From: an uncultured Muribaculaceae bacterium
GTDB taxonomy: Bacteria > Bacteroidota > Bacteroidia > Bacteroidales > Muribaculaceae
Direction of reading: 5' to 3'
NCBI GenBank assembly: GCA_944321685.1
Contig: CALUMH010000008.1
Location: forward strand, 1 to 64,000
DNA length: 64,000 nt
Positions 3,712 through 56,672 of this stretch are shown here, piece by piece. Position 1 is the first letter of the stretch. Each line of letters opens with the position of its first letter. The translations under genes were made by a program, and so were the position numbers. The notes beneath the pieces are model-generated. The model ran no database searches. It saw only the letters and a list, made by a program, of their open reading frames with translations, and was not told the origin of the DNA.

Positions 3712-6700
3712 TCAATCACCGGCCTCCACCCGTTCCCGTATAAATTCATCATTGCTTCTTGTTACAGTATCGGCAGGAGCCGCATCAGCTTCCCTATTAG
3801 GTTTCTTTCGCCACAAGAAATCATATATATCATCGAAGTCATGTTTGAAAACCACACCCACTCCCTGGGTAGTCAATGCACTGCGCACATAATAGTTTTG
3901 GTCGTTATAATGATTATAAGCTTTCAACCTTATATTTCCATTTTTTGTCAACAGGTACTCTATATCAAAGTCGCCTATGAAATTTGAATTCCGCGTATTA
4001 AGTGCATTGTCACGATACCCGAAATTTCCGTTGAACAACAGCCTGTTGTTAAGCAACTGGCTCGACAAAGCAAGTTCCACTTCTATATCGGAAAAATCCC
4101 CGTTATCGCTCCTGAAATTAGGCGATATGCTCCAATTCTCGCTCATCTGCCCGAGCAAATTAGACAATTGTGAAGAAATAGTTGATGATGCCACCGATGC
4201 CAATTCGTTACTACGGCTGTTTTCTGCCATATAATCGGGAGTATAAAAACTATTCAACGCCAACAAATATATAATTTGCCTGTTCATCATGTCCTCGGTG
4301 CTTATTATGCTCATCACCTTACGGTAAACATCCGACGTAAGTGTGGGAAATTCCAAATCGAAAGATATTTCAGGCGCACTTATATCGCCTTGCAGGCGCA
4401 ACAGCGCATTCACCGGCACATTGGTGCGGTTAAGCTCGCCATCGGTAGCAAACGACTCATCAAGGTCGGCAATATTGGCATGAAGCGAATACATCGCCTC
4501 TATGTCCATCACAGCCGACAACGGATTGCCGTTAAACGTAAGGCTGCTGCCTTCCCTTATGGTAAAATCTTTTATGATGATATCTTGCAATGTGAAATTA
4601 TAGTTACCTCGGGTAAGGGTGTATGTTCCAAACATCGTCATCTCCTCGTCGGCACTGTTATAGCCTATGCGCAAGCTGCCGTTTCCTGCCGCCCTAATCC
4701 TGTCGCCTCCCGACGGATCCATGATAAGATTCATTTGAGCCTGTGGCGTGGCATCAATCATCAAGTTGATATTGAATTGCGACGAGCTGCCATCTTCGAC
4801 ATTCTTCTGTCGCTTCAAAAATTCCTTCACTTTTTCGGGACGCGAATCCAATTGTGACTCATCGGCATTCGCCCCACGATTTCTATCGACAAACGTTATA
4901 AAATCGTACTCGGTTGCAACCTTGGTATCAGAAAGCACAAATGTGAAACTGCTATTGTCGGCCGTAGCCATATTCACATCTATGTTCACAAATCCCGGCC
5001 GCCCTGTTATGAATGCCGAACCGTTACAAAATATCCTGCCGTACCATTCGGGGCTCATTTTTTGCGTGACATCGAAGCTCAGGAAATTCGCAGCATTGGT
5101 CAGGCTGAAATCGAAAGTTGCATCATGGAAATAATCATGCGTCACCTTGCCCGACAATCGTGCCGTATGCCCCATCGGGTCCTTGATTTCTATATCGTCT
5201 ATCAATATCAATCCGGGTAACATTTTTACCGAATCGCGGGCCGTGTAATATACATTGGTGTAATCTATTTTCATTCTCAACGAATCGGCAAATACATCTC
5301 CCTTGAGATTAATATTCTTGAATGTGCCGTAAAGCTCCACGTGCCCCGAGGCTTCACCTTGTATATCCGACGAAAACGCCTTCATAAACGGTTTCAAGAA
5401 AGCAATGTTCACACGTTCGGGCTTAAAATCAAAATAAAGCGAGTCTCTTGCAATGAATATACGCCCGTCTATCAATGTCTGCCTGCCGTTTTGCTGTGAC
5501 ACGTCGGCTTGAATGGTCACACACTTCTCTTCATTTTTCCACGAACTCAATATCTTCGCGTCGCCAAACACGGCTTGGTTATACGACAGTGACTTTACGA
5601 AAAGCCCCTCGGTGTACATTCGTGGAACACCCGAAAACAGGTCGGACGCATAAAACACTCCTGTTGCACGTCCGCCGAATGTCACATTATTGATGGCAAG
5701 TGTTTCAAACACATAATCAAGATTTATATCATTCAATTCCACCACCATCTCGTCGTCGGGGTTACTGCTTGCCGTCCCGTCGATTTTCAAGAATTGCTTT
5801 TCACAAGTCACATAAAAATCATTCACGCCTATACGACCCTTGTCCACGTCTATGTGTGCAGGATGCACTCGCCACACCGTGTCGTTAAACATCAATTCGG
5901 TGGGGTTCACATCGATATGTATCGACGGTCCGGCTGCAACTGTGTCGCGAGTGAAAAGCGACGACAGGCTCACCTCCCCGCTATATGATTTCTTGCCGTC
6001 AACCGTCCACGACACATCACTGTCGATGCGGTCGTTCACCCCGTTTGCCACCACCGTAAGTGCAAGTTTCCCTTTCTTCAATGGAATAATCGAATACGCA
6101 TCAACCTGTAAATTATCGTCGGTATTATTCAACGATGCTTGCAAACGAGTTCCTTCAATCAACTTGTTTTTTTGCTGCAAATACGGTGCATCCACAAGTA
6201 AATACATGGAATGGTTGCTATCGGTTATAAAACCGTCTATCGTAACCGCACTTAGCGGTTTTACAGGCAAGTTAAACATATCGGCCACCTCTGCAAGGTT
6301 GTCGATGTTAAAATTGAAATACACATTATTCGGCACAATCTCACGTTCCCTTTCCTTCTTGTGCCGACGACGCAATTTATGTTTATCATGTTCCTTCTCC
6401 ACTTCAATCGTATCGCCGAGCAGCACAGGGAAAGGCCTTGAAAGCATTGTCTTGACCGACCCGGCAAGGCTATACACATCATATTGCCCCGATATGCTGC
6501 CATTTAATATATCGGATGTCACTCTCACGACCTTAGGCTGCGAATTATTGTCGGCCTCCACAAGGAATTTCGATATGTGTACCCCGTCTCCCACCGAATC
6601 ACAGTAAGTCAAGTTGTTGCACGACACGATACCGGTGATATTGTTTATGTCATTCCCTTCAAAAGCCGCATCAAGGTCGAACGATAATTTCTTGCCAGGG

Positions 6701-45311: not shown

Positions 45312-46450
45312 TATGCTTGTTTTCCTAATACTTTCTTATAAACGTCCATTGTATTCTTTGCTATCGATTCGCGTGTAAACCGGTTTGCATGGCTATATCC
45401 CTGTTCAATCATCGACTTGCGCAGCCTGTCATCGCTCAAAATCTCACCAATTGCCGTTGCCATTCCGGCTTCATCGTCGGGGTCAACATAACGGCTTCCC
45501 TCGCCCCCGGCCTCTTCAAGGCACGACCCTGTAGCAGCCACCACAGGAACGCCGCAGCATAAAGCCTCAAGGACTGGTATGCCGAATCCCTCGTAACGCG
45601 ACGGATATACAAATACAGCCGCCGACTGATACACCGCAGGCAAATCGTTGAAATGTATCTGCCTGAACAAGACATTGCTGCCAAGATTATACTTAGCAAC
45701 ATATTCTTTCACTTTTTGGGCATAGCCGGTTTCCCGGCCCACTATCACAAGGGGCAAAGCCATGTTACCCATGACCCTGAGAGCCTTCACCGCAAGCAGC
45801 ACATTCTTGCGCTCCTCGACCGTACCCACATATAGCATGAATTGCCCCTCGGGCAGATTGTATTTTTCCCTCACCGATGCCAATTCCTTTTGGCTGCGCT
45901 CAACCCTGAACCCATCGTCGCATCCCTGGTACACCACATCGATTTTATCGGCACTGATACCATAGCTTCTCACTATGTCACGCTTGGTGCATTGGCTCAC
46001 GGCAATTATGCGGTCGCTGTTTTCACACGCCCGCCTGAACTTGTAATCATATATAAGCCTGTCGGCCGGCTTGTAACAATGCGGATAATATAAAAATATC
46101 AAGTCGTGAATGGTTACAACCGTTGGCACTGTGTTATGCGAAAGCGGCAATTCGTTGCTGAGCCCGTGGAAGATATCAATCCCGTCTCGACTGTAATCTC
46201 GCACTATGCCACTACCCACACGCCACAGCCCCGACAGCATCCTGTCGATGCCTCGTTGCGGACCTGCAAGATTTATGTTTTTCCGACTTAGTAACGGTTC
46301 AAGCCGGTTGTTATATCGCAATTTAGGGGCATACAACACATATTCGTTTTCGGGATAATATTCCGAAAGCACATCCACAACAAGCCTGCTGTAATTGCCC
46401 AGCCCGGTCTTGTTGTTCACTGCACGCTTGGCGTCAAATCCTATCTTCAT
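45311..46450 (-). CDS. Glycosyltransferase family 4
   Basis: 379 aa from 46450 (MKIGFDAKRAVNNKTGLGNY), the standard start; the longer frame runs over a -7 box. Two Rossmann domains: N-terminal acceptor half (DIFHGLSNELPLS, TIHDLIFLYYPHCY, IAVSQCTKRDIV) and C-terminal donor half with YVGTVEERKNVLLAVKAL and SRYEGFGIPVLEALCCG (E-x7-E). It transfers a sugar, probably mannose, from an NDP donor to a surface glycan. It heads a likely operon with C_GCAxxG and the antiporter. This intact enzyme contrasts with the GT4 stub at 27332. Confidence 0.92.
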   Translation of the reverse strand: MKIGFDAKRAVNNKTGLGNYSRLVVDVLSEYYPENEYVLYAPKLRYNNRLEPLLSRKNINLAGPQRGIDRMLSGLWRVGSGIVRDYSRDGIDIFHGLSNELPLSHNTVPTVVTIHDLIFLYYPHCYKPADRLIYDYKFRRACENSDRIIAVSQCTKRDIVRSYGISADKIDVVYQGCDDGFRVERSQKELASVREKYNLPEGQFMLYVGTVEERKNVLLAVKALRVMGNMALPLVIVGRETGYAQKVKEYVAKYNLGSNVLFRQIHFNDLPAVYQSAAVFVYPSRYEGFGIPVLEALCCGVPVVAATGSCLEEAGGEGSRYVDPDDEAGMATAIGEILSDDRLRKSMIEQGYSHANRFTRESIAKNTMDVYKKVLGKQA

Positions 46451-46477: not shown

Positions 46478-46485
46478 CAAAGTTA
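46478..46485 (-). promoter_or_regulatory. Putative -7 box for GT4 operon
   Basis: TAACTTTG on the minus strand, 28 bases before the GT4 start; no clear -33. Confidence 0.4.
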
Positions 46486-46513
46486 CGCATAATTCGGGAG
46501 TAATACACATAAA

Positions 46514-46544
46514 AAAGCCCCGTACAATCACTGCAGGGGGCTTT
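46514..46544 (-). terminator. Intrinsic terminator
   Basis: AAAGCCCC (46514-46521) pairs with GGGGCTTT (46537-46544). On the minus strand it is followed by more T (six in all at the stem edge). It would end a minus-strand transcript from the methyltransferase or a small RNA. Confidence 0.75.
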
Positions 46545-46670
46545 CTCATAAACGATATTTACAGAATGTATTGCGATTGTCAATACACCATTTTCTCGTA
46601 TTAACCAACTCGTATTAGAAGGTGTGAAGTATCAAGCCTTTATTATTGAAAATATAGAACTCGGTTTTAT
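46514..46670 (-). ncRNA. Candidate small RNA between methyltransferase and GT4 genes
   Basis: In this 311-bp gene-free space (46451-46761) the minus strand shows a -7 like TAATTTTG (46678-46685), a hairpin TGTATTG/CAATACA (46567-46587), a direct repeat of TAATACGAG (46595-46603 and 46609-46617 on the complement, 14-bp period) and a strong terminator (46514-46544). No reading frame of length. It could equally be the 3' untranslated tail of the methyltransferase transcript. Confidence 0.35.
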
Positions 46671-46761
46671 TACGTTGCAAAATTAAATCCCGATTATTAC
46701 AAACCGGTAACAATCCCGTTAAAATAGCAATACAAATGCCGGCGCATATTTCTTATTCTCA

Positions 46762-47580
46762 TTATTGTATTTTATAGCCGAGCAATGAACTGAAACGATA
46801 GCATAACCGTGGTATCCTGCCAAGGATTTGACCAAAGAAAAATCCCCACCTGTGCCGGAAAAATTTCATATAGTTTGCCTGGTCGATAAGCTGCAGTGCT
46901 GGCTCCCAACGTTCAACTTCATGCCCGTCGTCTATCCCCGATAAGATGCGGGCCTGTTGCCGCTTCATCGAATCGGGTTTCACGCCACGCTTGCTCATCA
47001 TTGTACCGCACACGTCAAACCACAATTCACCTCCGCCGAAGCGCATGGCTATATTATGCAAAAACCACCGCACCTTCACCACAGGAAAATACATAAGCAC
47101 ACCTTCGGCTACAAATATGAAGTTGCAATCCCGGTGTACATCGCGCAACTCATCCATCCACCCGGTTTCGAGCAACGATGCCGCAATGTAACAATCATCA
47201 GGTTGCTCGGGAATGAATTCACGGCGCAAAGCAATGACTTCAGGCAAATCGAGTTCATAAAACATAGCGCCAGTATCACAGCCTATGCGTTGATAGCGCG
47301 TATCAAGCCCACAACCCACATTGACGACGACCGTTTTCTCATGTGATGCGACAAAACGCCTCACGGCATCATCAAAATACCGGCCTCGCACCAGACACCC
47401 GACTTCACTCAACGGTGCCCTGTCGAACTGTGAATAATCATACTCGATACTTTCCACAATGCGTTCCGCAGCCTTGTCGTCAAGAATGGGATTTTTGCGG
47501 TGACTCTCTTTGGCACGCATATAAAGCGGTATCAGCAGCGTCTCGGCCACAACACTCTTAAATTCATGTTTTTGTTTCAT
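46762..47580 (-). CDS. Class I SAM-dependent methyltransferase, leucine carboxyl methyltransferase-like
   Basis: 272 aa from 47580 (MKQKHEFKSVVAETLLIPLY). The blocks PLYMRAKESHRKNPILDDKAA, RYFDDAVRRF, VVVNVGCGLDTRYQRI (SAM-binding motif I), FYELDLPEVIALR and FIFVAEGVLMYFP match the LCM/PPM1-like methyltransferases, whose bacterial members act on small molecules or polyketides. The substrate is unknown. It is a single gene with its own promoter (47640-47670). Confidence 0.87.
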   Translation of the reverse strand: MKQKHEFKSVVAETLLIPLYMRAKESHRKNPILDDKAAERIVESIEYDYSQFDRAPLSEVGCLVRGRYFDDAVRRFVASHEKTVVVNVGCGLDTRYQRIGCDTGAMFYELDLPEVIALRREFIPEQPDDCYIAASLLETGWMDELRDVHRDCNFIFVAEGVLMYFPVVKVRWFLHNIAMRFGGGELWFDVCGTMMSKRGVKPDSMKRQQARILSGIDDGHEVERWEPALQLIDQANYMKFFRHRWGFFFGQILGRIPRLCYRFSSLLGYKIQ

Positions 47581-47639
47581 ATTTCTTTTATTATTAATGA
47601 ACATTCTTCGATTCGTTCATGAAAAAAAGACTTTATCTG

Positions 47640-47710: not shown

Positions 47711-47752
47711 AAAAAAAGGTTGCCGCCTCCAAGCAATCGGGAAACGGCAACC
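47711..47752 (-). terminator. Terminator of the receptor-lipoprotein operon
   Basis: GGTTGCCG (47718-47725) with CGGCAACC (47745-47752), then seven T on the minus strand (47711-47717). It lies 30 bases after the lipoprotein stop. Confidence 0.8.
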
Positions 47753-47782: not shown

Positions 47783-49330
47783 TTAATAATCGGTGTTGTT
47801 AGGATCGAAGTTTGTCCAACCGTCCATCCAGTTGTCATCGGCGGCAAAAGCTCCAATGTAGCTTACATTGTCCATGCCGTCAACTCCTTCAAACGAAGCG
47901 GCTGTCAGCAACGGGCTGCCTGCTTGCGGCATATAGCCGGCACCTATATTGTCGGGATCGGAAAGCATCAGCGAAGAAGCATCATCATATACTTTATTAC
48001 CCGATTGCGACAAGAAGTAAGTGTGAGAATAAGATACTTGATTTGCATCGATTACCGTATCGTTAACAGCATCGTAAAGGACATCTTCATATATGCCGTT
48101 GAAATCACTGCCAAGAATATCCATACCGGCAAACCAAACGTTTTGTACCTTTACAGTACCGTTCTTTGCCATGTCAACAGTGTTGCCGCGCTGACCGTCG
48201 ATGATGATACCAACGGGGAAACCTACTGCTACCGAATTGTGGCAGTTCAAGCGGCTGCCGCGACGAATTTGCATGGCCGACTGGAATTGGCCGAGGGCAG
48301 AACCGTTATTCGGGAAGTAATCACCACCGTTGATGAATTCATTGGCAGTATTTGCAAAATTGTCACGACCGCACGGGCCTACGAAAGTAACATTGCTGAA
48401 TGTGCAAGTGGTATAAGGCTCGATATCGGCACCATCGCTGCAGTTATCCGACTCAAAACCATTCGACCTTGAAGTATCGGCAATGCGGGGATCTCGGAAT
48501 GACAGACAGAACTGAACGTTTCCGCTGAAACCGTTGTCGGTATCGAAATCATCGTCCCAACCCCTATAAGCAATAAGATACTTGCAATCGACAGTACCGC
48601 CAAACCACTCGAACGAATCGTCGTTGCTGAACGATACCTGAACATGGTCGATCTTTGTGCCACTACCCACCGAACCGAGTGTCAATCCGTTGATTTCCTG
48701 ATCGGTTTGGAAAGGATAACCGGCAAACTCGATGCGAACATAGCTCAATACACCCGAGTTGTCGTCGTCGATGCTACCACCGTGATGACTGCGCGGGCCA
48801 CCTTCGATTTGCATATCATCCTGGTTGTTGCGAGCCTGGCCGCAGATGATTACACCACCCCAGTCACCCGGCTTGCGTTGTCCTTTCGGTGAATTAGAAG
48901 TGAACACAATAGGTTCGGTTGCCGACCCTTGGGCAATCAACTTACCGCCTTTTTCAACGATGAGCGATGCCATTGTGGTCTTGTCGCCCTTGATAACCGT
49001 ACCCGGTTCTATGGTCAATTGCGCTCCGTTGGCTATATACACCCAACCTTTAAGCAAATATGTTCCTTTTTTAAGCGTTTGGTTGCCGGTAAAAACAAAA
49101 TCTTTATCGCCATTACCAATAACAGTTCCTTCAGGATTTTCAGTACCATCTTCGTTAAACAATAGGTGATCACAGCTTACGGCACCATTGTCTGTTCCCC
49201 ACACATAATCACCTTCACCGGGTTCCTCGGTTCCCGGACCCGAAGGTTTCTCCTCATCATCACTACAAGACACCGAGAACATAGAGATACCGGCAATGAG
49301 TGCATAAACAAAATAACTTTTAAACTTCAT
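47783..49330 (-). CDS. Surface lipoprotein, parallel beta-helix-like, partner of TonB receptor
   Basis: 515 aa from 49330 (MKFKSYFVYALIAGI). The lipobox VSC is followed at once by SDDEEKPSGPG, a strong surface-export signal for Bacteroidota lipoproteins. The body has right-handed beta-helix features: GWVYIANGAQLTIEPGTVIKG, IVEKGGKLIAQGSATEPIVF, GGVIICGQARNN, YVRIEFAGY and VQVSFSNDDSFEWFGG. Acidic runs (WDDDFDTDNG) could bind cations. In databases such proteins appear next to TonB receptors without a fixed name. It follows the receptor by 61 bases with no terminator between, so the two form one operon; probably a capture protein. Confidence 0.75.
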   Translation of the reverse strand: MKFKSYFVYALIAGISMFSVSCSDDEEKPSGPGTEEPGEGDYVWGTDNGAVSCDHLLFNEDGTENPEGTVIGNGDKDFVFTGNQTLKKGTYLLKGWVYIANGAQLTIEPGTVIKGDKTTMASLIVEKGGKLIAQGSATEPIVFTSNSPKGQRKPGDWGGVIICGQARNNQDDMQIEGGPRSHHGGSIDDDNSGVLSYVRIEFAGYPFQTDQEINGLTLGSVGSGTKIDHVQVSFSNDDSFEWFGGTVDCKYLIAYRGWDDDFDTDNGFSGNVQFCLSFRDPRIADTSRSNGFESDNCSDGADIEPYTTCTFSNVTFVGPCGRDNFANTANEFINGGDYFPNNGSALGQFQSAMQIRRGSRLNCHNSVAVGFPVGIIIDGQRGNTVDMAKNGTVKVQNVWFAGMDILGSDFNGIYEDVLYDAVNDTVIDANQVSYSHTYFLSQSGNKVYDDASSLMLSDPDNIGAGYMPQAGSPLLTAASFEGVDGMDNVSYIGAFAADDNWMDGWTNFDPNNTDY

Positions 49331-49391: not shown

Positions 49392-52178
49392 TTAGAACGA
49401 ATAGCTTACACTTACCGAATAGTTGCGTCCGGGATCGAATTGACGCGTAACCTCTTCAATTTCGCCATGCGATGTTTCTTCAAATTGCTTATAGCAAATG
49501 TCTTCCGACAAAATGTTGCGCAATGAGAGCTTAACCTCGAAGTGGTTGCCGAATTTCTTCGATGCGCTCAAGTCAAGTGTGTTGCGTGGCATTTCATACG
49601 AATCGGGTATATTCACCACGTTGTCGCCGCTGCCAAGGCTGCGCCCTACTCCAACAATGCGCTTGCCAATACGGTTGTAAAGCAACGCCACATTCAAGTC
49701 GAGGTTGCGGGGCTGATAGAAAATCCCTGCATTGACAAGATAAGGCGACTGGCCTTGCATGGGACGGTCTTTCTCTTTCGACCCTTCGGGGAAAACCACT
49801 TTACTTTTAATCAATGCGCCATTGAAATTGATGCCGAAATCATTCAGGCCGATAAAATCAAGGTTCTTCTTTATCTCGACTTCAACACCGTATGTGTCGG
49901 CACCTTCGGCATTCTCATACGAGTAGGTAAGACTCGTGCCGCCATTCACTGTATATGTCCATTCTATAGGGTTCTTGAAGTGCTTATAGAAAAGCGATAC
50001 CGATACCAGTTCACCCGATGCGGGATAAAACTCATAACTCAAGTCAACATTGTCGATATATGCAGCTTCAAGGTCGGTGTTACCCTGCACGTTGCTGGCA
50101 AGGTCGAAATCATAGTAAACCGACGGTGACACTTCACGAAACTCGGGGCGGTTGATGCTGCGGCCGTATGACACACGAGCCTGGTGCTTGTCCGAGAATT
50201 TATATGCTGCATTCACCGAGGGAAAGAAATCGCTCGTCTCATAGAACAGGCTTCGCGGGCTTTCTTGATAATCACGAGTATTGCTTATAAGTTCCATCTT
50301 GTTATATTCATATCTCACACCGGCATATACATTGAACTTGTTAACCGGTATGTTTATTCCCACATAACCTGCCATGAGCTTGTTGTTGCCATCGTAATTG
50401 TTGGTCCAACGCACATTTTCAAGCATATACAACTTGTCGGCACCGTAGTTTCCATCAACGAGCAATTCGGTGGGTATATCCATATACATGAATCCCGAGG
50501 GGAGTGTGCTGTTTACCGGGTTATAAGAGTAGATGAAATCCCTTGCCCTGTAACTGCGAGTGCGATAATCGCCATATAAGCCCACCCTGAGTTCGGGCTG
50601 TATTTCACCAATCCAATATTTGTCACGGAAATTCACGTTAAGCGATGCCGTGTGCTCGTTAAGGCGGGTAAACTCCCGTTCTATGTCATTGGCACTCGAC
50701 AATCCAAGGTGACCGCGATCAAGTGCGTCGTTTATCACATAACGGCGACGGTCGGGCATACAATTGTTGGCGTAAGCGTATCCCACGCTCCAGTCAAGGC
50801 GGCGGTCATCGGTAAGTTGATGGCGACCCGTGAACTGCCCGTTATATGTGGTGCGGCTCATATAGTAATATTCGGCACTCTGCTCGTTATTGCTCTGAGC
50901 ATCGATTCCCACACGCGAGGTGTAACGGTCGCGACCCACTTGGTTGAATATATTCTTGAACTCATAACGATTGTTGCCGTCGGCGCTCAAGTAAGTCAGG
51001 TTAAGCATTGCACCTATCTTGGCATAATGGTTATACTGGTTATCCCGGCTGTTACGCAGATACACAGGGCGGTCGTTTGCCACATCGTATGCACCAAACA
51101 GCGAGTTTTCCATATTCAATATTGTACGGTAACTGTTACCATAATTCAACGTTCCAAGCAGGGCAAACGTCTTTCCTTCATCGCTTATCCAGCGTCGGTT
51201 AAGTTCGGCGTTGAACGACACGTCGGCCACCGGCTTTTTATTGCGAATGCGCCAGTCGTTATTCAGCCCGTTCTTTTGCAAATCCACACTGTTGTCAATT
51301 CCCGGAATACCTGTAAGCGCACCGTTGATACCACCGTCAAGACTGCGGAAACCGCTGTCGAAGCCAAGGAAATCGGTACTGCTGCCAAGTGCATACCTGA
51401 AGTCGCTGAAGTGTGTATTATCGTTGATGCTGCCACCAAGCGAAATCTTGAAAAAATTGGTGGCAGGTATGTCCTTCGTATTAATCATGACAAAGCCACC
51501 ACTGAAGTCGGCCGGATACTCGGGCGACGGCGACTTGATGATAATCATGTTATCAAGCTGAGACGACGGTATCATATCAAACGAATATGCCCGCGAATCG
51601 GCCTCGCTACTGGGGACGGCGCTGTTGTTAAGCCACACATTATTATAGCGTTGCGACAATCCGCGCACCATCACAAACCGGTCTTCGATAAGGCTGATAC
51701 CCGGAACGCGCTTGATAACTTCCGACGCATCGCTGTCTTGCGTGCGGCTGATTTGCTGCGCCGACACACCCGACTGCACCACAAGGCTGTTTTTTTGCAA
51801 ATTGACAATGGTTCCTTCCGAATCGCGGCGGGCTTGCGCCGTAACCACCACTTCGCTCAGCGTTTGGCTCTCCGACTCCATCACAAAGTCGGTAACCGTC
51901 AATCCTTCCACGTTTACCTCTTTCGATTGTGTCTTATAAAACACATACGATGCTTCCACCACATACTTGCCATTGCGCAACCCAGGAATTTCATAATTCC
52001 CGTCAACGTCGGTTGCCACTGTTATGCCCGCACTCGGCAGCGACACAGTGGCACCTATCAGCGGCTCATTGCTCTCGTCGGTCACCCGGCCTTTCAATGC
52101 AGCTGCATCGGCAGCCAACGCAACCAATCCTGTAAATATCAAAAGAAAAAACCTCAAACAATTTCTACTTCTCCCCAT
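49392..52178 (-). CDS. TonB-dependent receptor
   Basis: 928 aa. A signal peptide (FFLLIFTGLVALAADAAA) is followed by a CarboxypepD_reg-like domain (residues ~28-105, LKGRVTDESNEPLIGATVSL). The TonB-box-like SEVVVTAQARRD is near residue 110. The plug has SDASEVIKRVPGISLIEDRFVMVRGLSQRYNNVWLN and the barrel runs to the C-terminal YSVSVSYSF. It is not a SusC type: there is no SusD partner. It imports a bulky or scarce compound through the outer membrane with TonB energy. The substrate is unknown. Eight 11-bp-phased repeats (52234-52315) lie 56 bases upstream of the start codon and hint at response-regulator control. Confidence 0.93.
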   Translation of the reverse strand: MGRSRNCLRFFLLIFTGLVALAADAAALKGRVTDESNEPLIGATVSLPSAGITVATDVDGNYEIPGLRNGKYVVEASYVFYKTQSKEVNVEGLTVTDFVMESESQTLSEVVVTAQARRDSEGTIVNLQKNSLVVQSGVSAQQISRTQDSDASEVIKRVPGISLIEDRFVMVRGLSQRYNNVWLNNSAVPSSEADSRAYSFDMIPSSQLDNMIIIKSPSPEYPADFSGGFVMINTKDIPATNFFKISLGGSINDNTHFSDFRYALGSSTDFLGFDSGFRSLDGGINGALTGIPGIDNSVDLQKNGLNNDWRIRNKKPVADVSFNAELNRRWISDEGKTFALLGTLNYGNSYRTILNMENSLFGAYDVANDRPVYLRNSRDNQYNHYAKIGAMLNLTYLSADGNNRYEFKNIFNQVGRDRYTSRVGIDAQSNNEQSAEYYYMSRTTYNGQFTGRHQLTDDRRLDWSVGYAYANNCMPDRRRYVINDALDRGHLGLSSANDIEREFTRLNEHTASLNVNFRDKYWIGEIQPELRVGLYGDYRTRSYRARDFIYSYNPVNSTLPSGFMYMDIPTELLVDGNYGADKLYMLENVRWTNNYDGNNKLMAGYVGINIPVNKFNVYAGVRYEYNKMELISNTRDYQESPRSLFYETSDFFPSVNAAYKFSDKHQARVSYGRSINRPEFREVSPSVYYDFDLASNVQGNTDLEAAYIDNVDLSYEFYPASGELVSVSLFYKHFKNPIEWTYTVNGGTSLTYSYENAEGADTYGVEVEIKKNLDFIGLNDFGINFNGALIKSKVVFPEGSKEKDRPMQGQSPYLVNAGIFYQPRNLDLNVALLYNRIGKRIVGVGRSLGSGDNVVNIPDSYEMPRNTLDLSASKKFGNHFEVKLSLRNILSEDICYKQFEETSHGEIEEVTRQFDPGRNYSVSVSYSF

Positions 52179-52233
52179 TACTGTTATACCTATTGTTTTA
52201 CAAATTTTTCACGGTGCAAATTTCCGCCTTTGG

Positions 52234-52315
52234 TGTAACAACGGTTTTTCATAGCTGTGACAATTCGGTTACGGGCGTAACAATCCCTTTACACCCCGGT
52301 AACATTACTATAACA
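52234..52315. promoter_or_regulatory. 11-bp-phased direct repeat array (candidate PhoB/OmpR-class operator)
   Basis: Reading the plus strand, T-N-A-C-A cores occur at 52236, 52258, 52269, 52278, 52289, 52300 and 52311 (TAACA, TGACA, TTACG, TAACA, TTACA, TAACA, TAACA). Spacings are 22, 11, 9, 11, 11 and 11; a degenerate unit (TTTCA, 52247) fills the 22-base step. OmpR/PhoB-family regulators bind 11-bp direct repeats, and B. subtilis PhoP boxes are TTAACA-like with this period. It lies between the LruC terminator and the receptor start codon. Confidence 0.55.
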
Positions 52316-52333: not shown

Positions 52334-52370
52334 AAAAAAGCCTGTTGGCCGCTAAGCTCAACAGGCTTTT
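52334..52370 (-). terminator. Terminator of downstream LruC gene
   Basis: AAAAGCCTGTTG (52336-52347) and CAACAGGCTTTT (52359-52370), a 12-bp perfect stem with an 11-nt loop; six T follow on the minus strand. About 60 bases past the LruC stop. Confidence 0.85.
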
Positions 52371-52432: not shown

Positions 52433-54424
52433 TCATTTATGCAGATACCAGTCGGTATTAGTCGTCGGGTCGGCAACCCAACCGTTAAATCCGGCATAGT
52501 TGCCCTCGCTGCCGATTCGCACGCCTTCATCCACAGGAATCCAGTTGGTTACGCCTTCTAACTTGATGGCAAACGGATACTTGCCATCTTCCGAGATATA
52601 ATAAGCATCATGCCCGCCTTCGGCAAGTGTTGCGTTTGCCCAACCGGTCATGGCATATCCCGGCAAGTGTATCTCGACGCGGTTCTTTGCCCCGGCAACA
52701 TATTGCGATACCACAAACGGATTGAAATGGTCGTCGAAATTGGTATTGCTCAGTGCCCCGTCGGCAAATGTGCGGTTCAGCGTGTAGGTATTGCCTATCG
52801 CAGCCTGTCCGTTTTCAAACATTATGAATTGACCCGGTTCTTCCTGCTTCGCATATCCCTCGACAGAACCGACCGCAGCGTTATCCACCGTAAAGCCGAA
52901 TGCATCGATATAGTCGGCACTGCCCTTCAAATTAGTCACCTTGAAAGCATCTTCAATCTTGGTAATATCATTGTCGGCATTGTAATATACCGTGCGAGTA
53001 TGCTCCACAAGCACGTCGTTCAAGTCATAGTCACCGCCATCGGGCCAAATATCCTCGAAACCGAGTGTCGATGTTTCTTGATACGGTTCCGGCACAACAG
53101 GTTCCGGATCGGGAATTACAGGACGGTCGGGATCATAAATCGCAGTTGCCGGATCAGCCTCCACATAGAACAGTATGTCGTTATACGACTTGTCGCCGCC
53201 ACCTTCTTGGAAAGCATCGTCTTCAAAACCTATAACCACACGTCCTGTGTCCGGGTCGGTCATAGTTATGCAACCGTAATGCCCATAATTGTTACATTCT
53301 TTATTGGAATATACTGCCTCACCATTGCCATACACTTTGGCAATTTGGCCGTTTATTGCATTCACTGCAAAATCGCTTGGCGGAGTATCGTTGGGACGCA
53401 AGTCTCCGGGATATATATTCGGGAACAAAATCCACCCGATAGTGTAACCTGCCGGGAAATCATCGGTACCCGGTTCATCATAATTGTCGCCAAAGTATTG
53501 CAATCTCACTTTAACAGGAGAGTCGGGAGTTCCATTATGTGTCAATGGGTAAACCACAAATTTAGGCATGGCCTTGATTTCGGCAGCCGACGGGTTCGAC
53601 TCCGAAGGATAGTAATAATAACCCATAGCATTTTCATACGTTCCGGTAGCATCAAGATACACAATATCGATATGCGCACTCGTCACGGTTTCACCACCGT
53701 CGGTGGTCTCGATTATCTTGACATTAGTTATATCCGAATCTTTGCATAAATAGGAATTATCTTGCTTCGGCAAACTTGCATTTATCCTTTGCACCAAACC
53801 GGCTGTTTCTTCATTATCCACCACTTGATACAGATTATCTGTTTTGCTGTTGTATGCCCACCATTTGACTCCAGTAACGGCATCAAACTCCGAGAACGAA
53901 TCATACAACCCATACAGATTATATTGCTCCGATACCACTATGCGGTTTGCCGCAATATCTATATGCGACTCATCACCTGCCGCCCTTGTTGCAACCATGC
54001 CCGGCAATACCGGCATTTCATAATGATAAATTACCGAATTATTTTCAACAGCCAATTCCATACACTTGGGCACACCCACGTAATCGGAGCATACATAAAC
54101 GGCACTCACATAAGCGGGCAACTTTATCGACCCGTCAAACTTGCTGTTGCCGTCGGTAAACGCCCCGTAAATCGGCCGTAAATTCTCTTTGCGTGTACCG
54201 TCCTCGTTATAAGGATTTTCGGCATACACCTCAAAGTTTACCGAATAGTCGCTGAAACCATAGTCAAGCGACAAGTCCACTACTTGCTCGGTCGAGAAAT
54301 CAAAAACCTCACCCGGCATTCCCGTTCCCGGTTCATTGCCTGCACCGGGTTCTTTGTCAACGCACGACGGCATCGCCATCATGCCCAAAGATGCAATTGT
54401 CAATAAAAAATGTGATTTACGCAT
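52433..54424 (-). CDS. LruC-domain lipoprotein (copy 2)
   Basis: 663 aa. The signal peptide has lipobox MPSC at about residue 21, then VDKEPGAG. The N-terminal beta-rich domain shares blocks with its neighbour (FEVYAENPYNEDGTRKE, IKLPAYVSAVYVCSDYVGVP). A middle DUF4114-like block contains VVIGFEDDAFQEGGGDKSYN and ILFYVEADP. The C-terminal LruC/DUF4842 domain holds LGFEDIWPDGGDYDLNDVLV, whose spaced Asp residues suggest calcium, then KVTNLKGSADYIDAFGFTV. LruC proteins are known in Leptospira and Bacteroidota and have no defined function. A tandem paralogue lies upstream; both have their own terminators. Confidence 0.85.
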   Translation of the reverse strand: MRKSHFLLTIASLGMMAMPSCVDKEPGAGNEPGTGMPGEVFDFSTEQVVDLSLDYGFSDYSVNFEVYAENPYNEDGTRKENLRPIYGAFTDGNSKFDGSIKLPAYVSAVYVCSDYVGVPKCMELAVENNSVIYHYEMPVLPGMVATRAAGDESHIDIAANRIVVSEQYNLYGLYDSFSEFDAVTGVKWWAYNSKTDNLYQVVDNEETAGLVQRINASLPKQDNSYLCKDSDITNVKIIETTDGGETVTSAHIDIVYLDATGTYENAMGYYYYPSESNPSAAEIKAMPKFVVYPLTHNGTPDSPVKVRLQYFGDNYDEPGTDDFPAGYTIGWILFPNIYPGDLRPNDTPPSDFAVNAINGQIAKVYGNGEAVYSNKECNNYGHYGCITMTDPDTGRVVIGFEDDAFQEGGGDKSYNDILFYVEADPATAIYDPDRPVIPDPEPVVPEPYQETSTLGFEDIWPDGGDYDLNDVLVEHTRTVYYNADNDITKIEDAFKVTNLKGSADYIDAFGFTVDNAAVGSVEGYAKQEEPGQFIMFENGQAAIGNTYTLNRTFADGALSNTNFDDHFNPFVVSQYVAGAKNRVEIHLPGYAMTGWANATLAEGGHDAYYISEDGKYPFAIKLEGVTNWIPVDEGVRIGSEGNYAGFNGWVADPTTNTDWYLHK

Positions 54425-54677: not shown

Positions 54678-56672
54678 TTATTTCTTGTTTTTATACCAGT
54701 CGGCATATTGCCCCGATGTTGGGCATCCGGCCTCTACCCAATTGTTGTAAGTCGGGTACTCGCCTTCGCTACCAATAGTAACCGTTTCGGTTACAGGTTC
54801 CCAACCGGTAACGCCGGCAAGGCTTATGGCAAACGGATATTTGCCGTTTTTGTTTACATAATAAGCGTCATCGGCCTGGCCTTGTTGTGATGCATCGGCC
54901 CAACTTGTGGCAGCCATCTTGGGCAAATGCACTTCCTTGCGGTTCTTGCTGCCTGCAACATAGTTGATAACTATGAACGGATTGAATTCATCATCAAATC
55001 CCTTGTGTGCAAGCTCGCCGTCTTTGAACGTGCGGGTCAACGTATATGTCTCCCCTATCGAAGACTGAGCATCGGTAAACATGATGAACTGGTTGCTCTC
55101 TTCTATCGCAGCTGCACCGGTTACAGCACCAACGGTACTCGATGTCACGGTAAAGCCAAATGCATCGGTGTAATCGGCACTACCCTTTAAGTTAACCACC
55201 TTGAAAGCATCTTCAATCTTGGTAATGTAACCATTGCTGTTGTGGGTTACGGTGTGGGTTTGCTCCACAACCACGTCGTTAAGGTCATAGTCACCGCCGG
55301 TAGGCCAAATATCCTCAAATGCAATTGTGGCAGTCTCGGTGTATGAATCCTCGGTAGGTTCTTCCGGCTCTTCGGGTATATCCGGACGATCGGGGTTTTG
55401 AATTACATCGGGATTTGACTCTACATAGAACAAGATGTCGTCAAACGATTTGTCGCTGCCTTTCGGATTATTAGTCTGATCTTCAAAGCCTATGATTACA
55501 CGACCCGAATCGGGATCATTAAGCGTGATGCAACCTTTCTTTTGACTATGGTTATATTCGCTGTTGGAATATATAGCCATATTATCACTGTAAACCTCGG
55601 TAATACCTTTGTTGATTACATCTATGTCCCATGAGTTCTTTCCACTGCCAAACGGCCACCAAGAATCAACCGTGCGATCGAGATTCGGGAACAACACCCA
55701 ACCTATAGTATATCCACCCGGGAAATCATCGGTTCCTTTTTCATTATAGTTCTCACCGTAAAATTGCAAACGAGCCTTCACAGGATGGTCAGGATTGCCA
55801 TCGGTAGTCAACGGGAATACCACATACTTGGGAATATTTCTTACATCGGGCGTGGTACCTGTCTTATAGTAATAATACCCCATTGCGTTCTCATATTCGC
55901 CGGTAGCCGAAAGGAACACAAGGTCGAGGTGACAACTTTCAAGTTCCTCTCCGTTATAAGTGGCAGGAATAGTAACATTGGTGTCTTCCGAATCACTCGT
56001 ATATTGGCTGTTATCTTTCTTATTGCCACGCTTGTCGGTCAAAGAATTTTGTACCCGGCGAAGCAAGTTTGCAGTCTCGTAACTGAGATCTACGGCATAC
56101 AGCCCTGATACATTCTCATTATATGCCCAATAACTTGTTTTATTTACATATGAATATCTTGAAATATCGGTATATAAAGCATACAAATTCTTTGAAATAC
56201 GGTCGGCCTTGCTGACGCTGTAGCAAGGATCTTCACTGCCTGCACGTGTTACCAATGTACCCGGCAGTTCAGGCAACTCATACTTATAAGTTACGGCATT
56301 GTTTTCAACTTTCAGTTCCAAGCAGCGCGGAATACCGTAAGAATTCGAGCACAGATACACTGTCTCAACATAGGCAGGCAATGTAACCGTGGCTTGATAA
56401 CGGCTGTTTTCATCGGTGAAACCTCCGTAATACGGTTCTACATCTTTCTTGGTTCCATCTTCGTTATATGGGTTTTCAATATACAGTTTGAAATTGGCAC
56501 TGTACCCCGCATAACCATAATCAATGTTAAGCGCTACTTCATTCTCGGTCGAGAAATCAGAAATCTCTGCAGGAGTAGGCATCCCGCCACCCACCGCAGT
56601 CGGTTCTTTATCAACGCACGAAGCCATCATGCACAACAAAGCACCTGAAACTAAACAAAGTGATTTACGCAT
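54678..56672 (-). CDS. LruC-domain lipoprotein (copy 1)
   Basis: 664 aa. Lipobox MASC (Cys about residue 18), followed by VDKEPTAVGG. Same architecture as the downstream copy: N-terminal beta domain (FKLYIENPYNEDGTKKD, VTLPAYVETVYLCSNSYGIP), a DUF4114-like segment (VIIGFEDQTNNPKGSDKSFD), then LruC/DUF4842 (IAFEDIWPTGGDYDLNDVVV, KVVNLKGSADYTDAFGFTV). The conserved blocks are near-identical while linkers differ (a Pro/Glu hinge IPEEPEEPTEDSY here), pointing to an old tandem duplication. It is probably surface-attached; the ligand is unknown. A consensus promoter lies at 56737-56768. Confidence 0.85.
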   Translation of the reverse strand: MRKSLCLVSGALLCMMASCVDKEPTAVGGGMPTPAEISDFSTENEVALNIDYGYAGYSANFKLYIENPYNEDGTKKDVEPYYGGFTDENSRYQATVTLPAYVETVYLCSNSYGIPRCLELKVENNAVTYKYELPELPGTLVTRAGSEDPCYSVSKADRISKNLYALYTDISRYSYVNKTSYWAYNENVSGLYAVDLSYETANLLRRVQNSLTDKRGNKKDNSQYTSDSEDTNVTIPATYNGEELESCHLDLVFLSATGEYENAMGYYYYKTGTTPDVRNIPKYVVFPLTTDGNPDHPVKARLQFYGENYNEKGTDDFPGGYTIGWVLFPNLDRTVDSWWPFGSGKNSWDIDVINKGITEVYSDNMAIYSNSEYNHSQKKGCITLNDPDSGRVIIGFEDQTNNPKGSDKSFDDILFYVESNPDVIQNPDRPDIPEEPEEPTEDSYTETATIAFEDIWPTGGDYDLNDVVVEQTHTVTHNSNGYITKIEDAFKVVNLKGSADYTDAFGFTVTSSTVGAVTGAAAIEESNQFIMFTDAQSSIGETYTLTRTFKDGELAHKGFDDEFNPFIVINYVAGSKNRKEVHLPKMAATSWADASQQGQADDAYYVNKNGKYPFAISLAGVTGWEPVTETVTIGSEGEYPTYNNWVEAGCPTSGQYADWYKNKK

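Follow-up and report, generated by a model that had tools for sequence, protein, structure and literature searches.

An array of eight direct repeats lies upstream of a TonB-dependent receptor gene in the window, by which is meant the whole 64,000-nucleotide stretch of Muribaculaceae DNA that was analysed. The array is confirmed as real and non-random, and in all likelihood it is a Pho box for the regulator PhoB, placed at an operon that would help the cell to capture phosphate or phosphorylated compounds. A sequence-only reading of the region had proposed control by the OmpR/PhoB family and a role in uptake of phosphate or a phosphorylated nutrient, and it was very probably right about both regulator and nutrient, with the array now found at orthologous receptor genes and at pst, phoB, Pit, polyphosphate kinase and phosphate-selective porin genes. 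The Pho-type switch itself is a known kind of system; what is added here is a promoter rule for the Bacteroidales and a predicted RNA that a second promoter of this type would drive.

The receptor is encoded on the minus strand, and direct reading of that strand gives an array of eight TGTNAC-like units running from 52315 down to 52235, the functional unit being TGTNAC(N5). The steps between them are 11, 11, 11, 9, 11, 11 and 11 bp, with the lone 9-bp step in the middle dividing the array into four plus four units. All seven of the TNACA-type cores that the sequence-only reading had listed are present and six read TNACA exactly, whereas the core at 52269 is right in position only, its sequence being TTACG; the degenerate unit supposed to fill a 22-base gap is also there, as TGAAAA. 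Within the 254-bp intergenic region the best eight-unit chain scores 35 out of 40, against a mean of 19.8 (sd 1.4, maximum 27) for 300 dinucleotide shuffles of the same region. Genome-wide, three adjacent units with no more than two mismatches occur at 11 sites compared with 4 for the reversed pattern, and the only three-unit site with a single mismatch is the receptor array.

Promoters of Bacteroidota carry TAnnTTTG at -12 to -5 (PMC9723704), and a -7 box of this consensus follows the array. The last unit begins exactly 20 nt ahead of TTTG (52220-52217), so that the two promoter-proximal units span about -39 to -23, the place of the -33 element, and the array appears to replace that element. 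Transcription of the receptor operon would start at about 52212. Across the congeneric genomes the distance from the units to the -7 box is fixed and the sequences of the units are conserved, with the spacers between them variable.

Table 1. Features of the receptor operon, its promoter and the predicted small RNA, in window positions.
Feature	Sequence	Positions	Strand	Basis
Predicted Pho-box array	eight TGTNAC-like units	52235..52315	minus	direct reading, shuffle test, congeneric genomes
Unit 1	TGTTAT	52315-52310	minus	
Unit 2	TGTTAC	52304-52299	minus	
Unit 3	TGTAAA	52293-52288	minus	
Unit 4 (then the 9-bp step)	TGTTAC	52282-52277	minus	
Unit 5	CGTAAC	52273-52268	minus	
Unit 6	TGTCAC	52262-52257	minus	
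Unit 7 (the degenerate unit)	TGAAAA	52251-52246	minus	
Unit 8	TGTTAC	52240-52235	minus	
-7 box of the receptor operon	GAAATTTG (consensus TAnnTTTG)	52217..52224	minus	position from PMC9723704 consensus, congeneric comparison
TonB-dependent receptor, 928 aa, not SusC-type		49392..52178	minus	Pfam/NCBIfam
Surface lipoprotein, 515 aa, predicted right-handed beta-helix, ElpS/FII-like		47783..49330	minus	AlphaFold2, pairing with receptor
Intrinsic terminator past the lipoprotein gene	GGTTGCCG...CGGCAACC + T7	47711..47752	minus	direct reading
Terminator of the upstream LruC-domain gene		52334..52369	minus	inverted repeat
Second predicted Pho box	TTTAAC-N5-TGTTAC-N5-TGTAAT	46696..46723	minus	pattern search; kept in relatives
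-7 box of the second predicted Pho promoter	TAATTTTG	46678..46685	minus	direct reading, pattern search
Predicted non-coding RNA, ~160 nt		46511..46673	minus	conservation, no Rfam family, covariance-model search
Hairpin and T-run terminator of the predicted RNA		46511..46544	minus	direct reading, fold
Separate promoter box of the glycosyltransferase gene	TAACTTTG	46478..46485	minus	direct reading, relatives

The receptor matches the Plug, barrel and CarbopepD_reg_2 models of Pfam/NCBIfam. The lipoprotein gene follows it after a short gap in the same operon, its product having no match to any Pfam or NCBIfam model. The AlphaFold2 model of the lipoprotein is confident (pLDDT 91.1) and rich in short strands. 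Its best fold matches in the PDB are weak, all having E values of at least 0.001, and most of them are right-handed beta-helices, among them pectate lyase, alginate lyase and tailspikes. The unit had been said to lack SusCD genes, and this holds: the N-terminal match of the receptor to TIGR04056 reaches 64 bits where 368 are needed for SusC-family status, and the lipoprotein appears to be a beta-helix. A pectin-lyase-like beta-helix lipoprotein gene adjoining a TonB-dependent receptor (TBDT) gene is a feature of ElpS/FII-type units, and by architecture and neighbourhood the pair would be classed as one. Transcription of the unit stops at a strong terminator 3' of the lipoprotein gene, and a further terminator parts the LruC-domain gene upstream from the array promoter. 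On that upstream side two adjoining genes (52433-54424 and 54678-56672) encode LruC/DUF4114/DUF4842 surface proteins of identical domain layout. Between the lipoprotein gene and the predicted small RNA lies an LCM-type methyltransferase gene (46762-47604), for which no relative was found in the 80 other receptor loci and which is therefore probably an insertion.

Orthologues of the receptor were found in 16 of 61 genomes of its own and related species, and a wider sample was made of 80 receptor loci from named Bacteroidales genomes, in 76 of which the lipoprotein is paired with the receptor. Eight units with a single 9-bp step are kept in seven of eight congeneric genomes; six of the seven have the pattern of four units, 9-bp step and four units, and in the other the best path shifts the 9-bp step one unit earlier. 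The eighth genome has an array without the 9-bp step. Of 77 Bacteroidales loci, most have phased arrays 5' of the receptor, the mean score being 14.7 against 12.8 for reversed sequence (Wilcoxon p 1e-11). A composite promoter is found at the receptor in 52 of 78 loci, at a lax threshold that gave 4 reversed-control hits over all positions; among the distant receptor loci, roughly one in three shows no clear composite promoter. A scan of relatives had been proposed as the check on the sequence-only reading, and its outcome favours that reading, since orthologous receptor genes are likewise preceded by the array, which recurs at pst genes.

The composite pattern used here, three units and a -7 box at 20 nt with up to three mismatches, occurs at six places in the 2.67-Mb genome and at none in the reversed control. 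The six are the receptor, the promoter at 46678-46723, phoB, a second receptor/lipoprotein pair (C19), pstS and one site at C17, the last of these (G000:C17:45156-45201) being a weak match with 3 mismatches. The promoters of pstSCAB-phoU, phoBR and the phosphate-selective porin gene are looser fits to the composite geometry. At both pstS and phoB the two exact units begin 42 and 31 nt before TTTG, distances that equal 20 plus multiples of 11, and the position at 20 is degenerate; the composite match at pstS is off register, the true -7 box being 11 bp further on. Of two exact units at the Porin_O_P gene (C10), the one closer to TTTG begins 42 (20+22) nt before it. A looser version also stands at a TonB-like gene (C5) that lies opposite a gene for an endonuclease/phosphatase. 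The operon on C19 (L057 3594-7802) is a second TonB receptor and beta-helix lipoprotein operon with a putative Pho promoter, the sequence of which is found again in each of the nine congeneric genomes.

In the nine congeneric genomes the composite pattern gives 62 matches, compared with 4 in controls, and a gene-blind scan of 1.02 Mb of receptor loci gives 88 matches (one promoter may yield more than one) and none in reversed sequence. Away from the receptor, matches stand ahead of the genes for three Pit-family phosphate transporters, for two polyphosphate kinases, for a metallophosphoesterase and for one lipoprotein of the same family as that of the window, and ahead of one phoB gene; a few more stand before other genes or before none. 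In content the matched genes look like a phosphate regulon. No Bacteroidota Pho-box consensus was found in the literature searched, so the link between motif and regulator rests on this regulon content.

The array thus has the direct repeats at 11 bp and the TGT-A core of a Pho box, it is conserved upstream of orthologous genes, and within this genome the same element also stands at pst and phoB. Its identification as a Pho box draws on the module shared with phosphate genes, on conservation, on the near-zero reversed controls and on the regulators available, as the genome encodes only two of the OmpR family, one together with a PhoR-like kinase (PhoB/PhoR-like) and the other in an RprXY-like pair. 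Half-sites spaced by 10-11 bp are shared by OmpR-family proteins and would suit the RprY-type regulator of this genome too, which might then bind the array in response to another stress. This is quite improbable given that the same module precedes phoB, pst, Pit, polyphosphate kinase and phosphate-porin genes, and that it is phoB, not rprY, that adjoins the receptor in several other Bacteroidales loci; the products of these adjoining phoB genes score 180-224 bits to the PhoB of this genome against 104-124 to the RprY type. It is scarcely credible that the repeats arose by chance or are a compositional or structural feature that no regulator reads. In favour of such an origin are the degeneracy of the units and the fact that bent DNA often has A/T tracts spaced at about a helical turn, but the shuffle test and near-zero reversed controls refute it as far as sequence can tell, and conserved units between variable spacers at a fixed distance from the -7 box also speak against it.

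With PhoB as the probable regulator, the array may be viewed as four pairs of 11-bp half-sites. On exhaustion of phosphate PhoR would phosphorylate PhoB, whose dimers would occupy the units head-to-tail, and RNA polymerase would be recruited to the -7 box through the pair closest to the promoter. The operon of receptor and surface beta-helix lipoprotein would then be switched on, allowing phosphate or phosphorylated compounds to be captured at the outer membrane. Because four units lie on either side of the 9-bp step, it is likely that PhoB would form two separately cooperative blocks.

The second predicted Pho promoter (46678-46723) precedes no gene directly. Its geometry is that of the receptor promoter, with the last unit 20 nt before TTTG, and transcription from it would start at about 46673 and express a short RNA. 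The core of this predicted RNA (46511-46647) has a mean column identity of 94% across six genomes, with diverging flanks. The RNA is found in seven of nine congeneric genomes and its Pho-box units are kept in all seven; it is missing from G004 and G007, whose assemblies are 79% and 83% complete respectively. The predicted fold is moderately stable (z about -2) and shows no two-sided base changes, the sequence being too conserved for covariation. Small ORFs within the RNA were dismissed because by inspection their frames break between species. The predicted RNA combines the marks of a trans-acting small RNA, namely a promoter of its own, no conserved ORF, an intrinsic terminator and conserved sequence. 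Comparison with Rfam gave sub-threshold chance hits only, and no credible copy outside the genus came from covariance searches that covered 297 genomes of the family and 295 of the order. Two of the hits were rejected, that in G175 lying inside a coding sequence which reads by eye as the end of a Lon protease and that in G428 being an intergenic terminator. When the genome was searched for sequences complementary to the invariant, unpaired part of the RNA, nothing beyond its own gene and hits at chance level came up, so no target is proposed.

In a genome of another genus (G034) a putative Pho promoter at 4491 of locus L070 is followed by a short terminator-ended non-coding stretch (4375-4509, minus strand), which lies just 5' of the receptor's own Pho promoter and has weak similarity to the RNA of the window (24.8 bits). 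Local alignment without the terminator scores 20 against 13.2 +/- 2.4 for shuffles (maximum 20.5), and as this score is within the shuffle range the match is taken as a lead only, hinting at a wider class of such RNAs.

The next gene on the strand encodes a glycosyltransferase, and the conserved stretch ahead of it ends in a terminator, so the second array could be thought to drive this gene through a long leader or attenuator with no free-standing small RNA. That is unlikely, since the glycosyltransferase gene has its own promoter box past the terminator, and the RNA and its Pho box persist in G002 and G008, where the sequence that follows is unrelated. The glycosyltransferase ORF has its likely start at 46450, the first ATG (46549) overlapping the RNA terminator. 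The balance tips slightly towards the window encoding a PhoB-controlled regulatory RNA of ~160 nt, linked to the receptor, that would form a post-transcriptional arm of the phosphate response in gut Muribaculaceae. To our knowledge it would be the first PhoB-controlled small RNA in Bacteroidota.

From these observations comes a rule, open to test, by which the phosphate regulon of Bacteroidales may be recognised in sequence: TGTNAY units recur at 11 bp, and the last of them lies 20 nt before TTTG or further off by a multiple of 11. Bacteroidales dominate the gut, and the rule predicts phosphorus scavengers among the many TonB receptors without an assigned substrate, whilst the small RNA flagged here may tune the phosphate response.

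Pho boxes include CTGTCAT of E. coli and TTAACA of B. subtilis. In common with the boxes bound by PhoB or PhoP, the window array is made of 11-bp direct repeats with a TGT(N)A core, and as in known Pho regulons the element serves pst, phoBR, porin and scavenging genes and lies over the upstream promoter element. It differs in its greater length of eight units (4+9-bp+4) and in its set spacing from the Bacteroidota -7 box, which is 20 nt or exceeds this by a multiple of 11 (31 at pstS and phoB, 42 at the porin gene). In other phyla, small RNAs under PhoB control have a Pho-box promoter, a short transcript and an intrinsic terminator, a layout that the predicted RNA shares, although it has no Rfam family and has been found in one Muribaculaceae genus only.

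Within the Bacteroidota, PhoB of B. fragilis binds the pstC promoter (PMC3547664), and in F. johnsoniae the TBDT Fjoh_0545 and lipoprotein FII (Fjoh_0546), encoded beside phoBR, rise strongly on phosphate depletion (PMC8115612). The likeness of the window pair to these proteins and to ElpS is one of architecture, gene order and published description. It shares with PUSIV of F. johnsoniae a TBDT with a pectin-lyase-fold lipoprotein, membership of a probable phosphate regulon and, in several Bacteroidales, adjacency to phoBR, although in the window's own genome phoBR is unlinked to the receptor operon. ElpS of Caulobacter (CC0170) is a phosphate-starvation lipoprotein beside the TonB receptor CC0171, it is tied to extracellular phosphatase activity, and its authors report homologues in Bacteroides (PMC2996285). 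The lipoprotein gene adjoins a TonB-dependent receptor gene in both cases, but in Caulobacter the pair has type II secretion genes as neighbours and a receptor that is constitutive (PMC2996285), unlike the window pair, in which receptor and lipoprotein would be switched on together.
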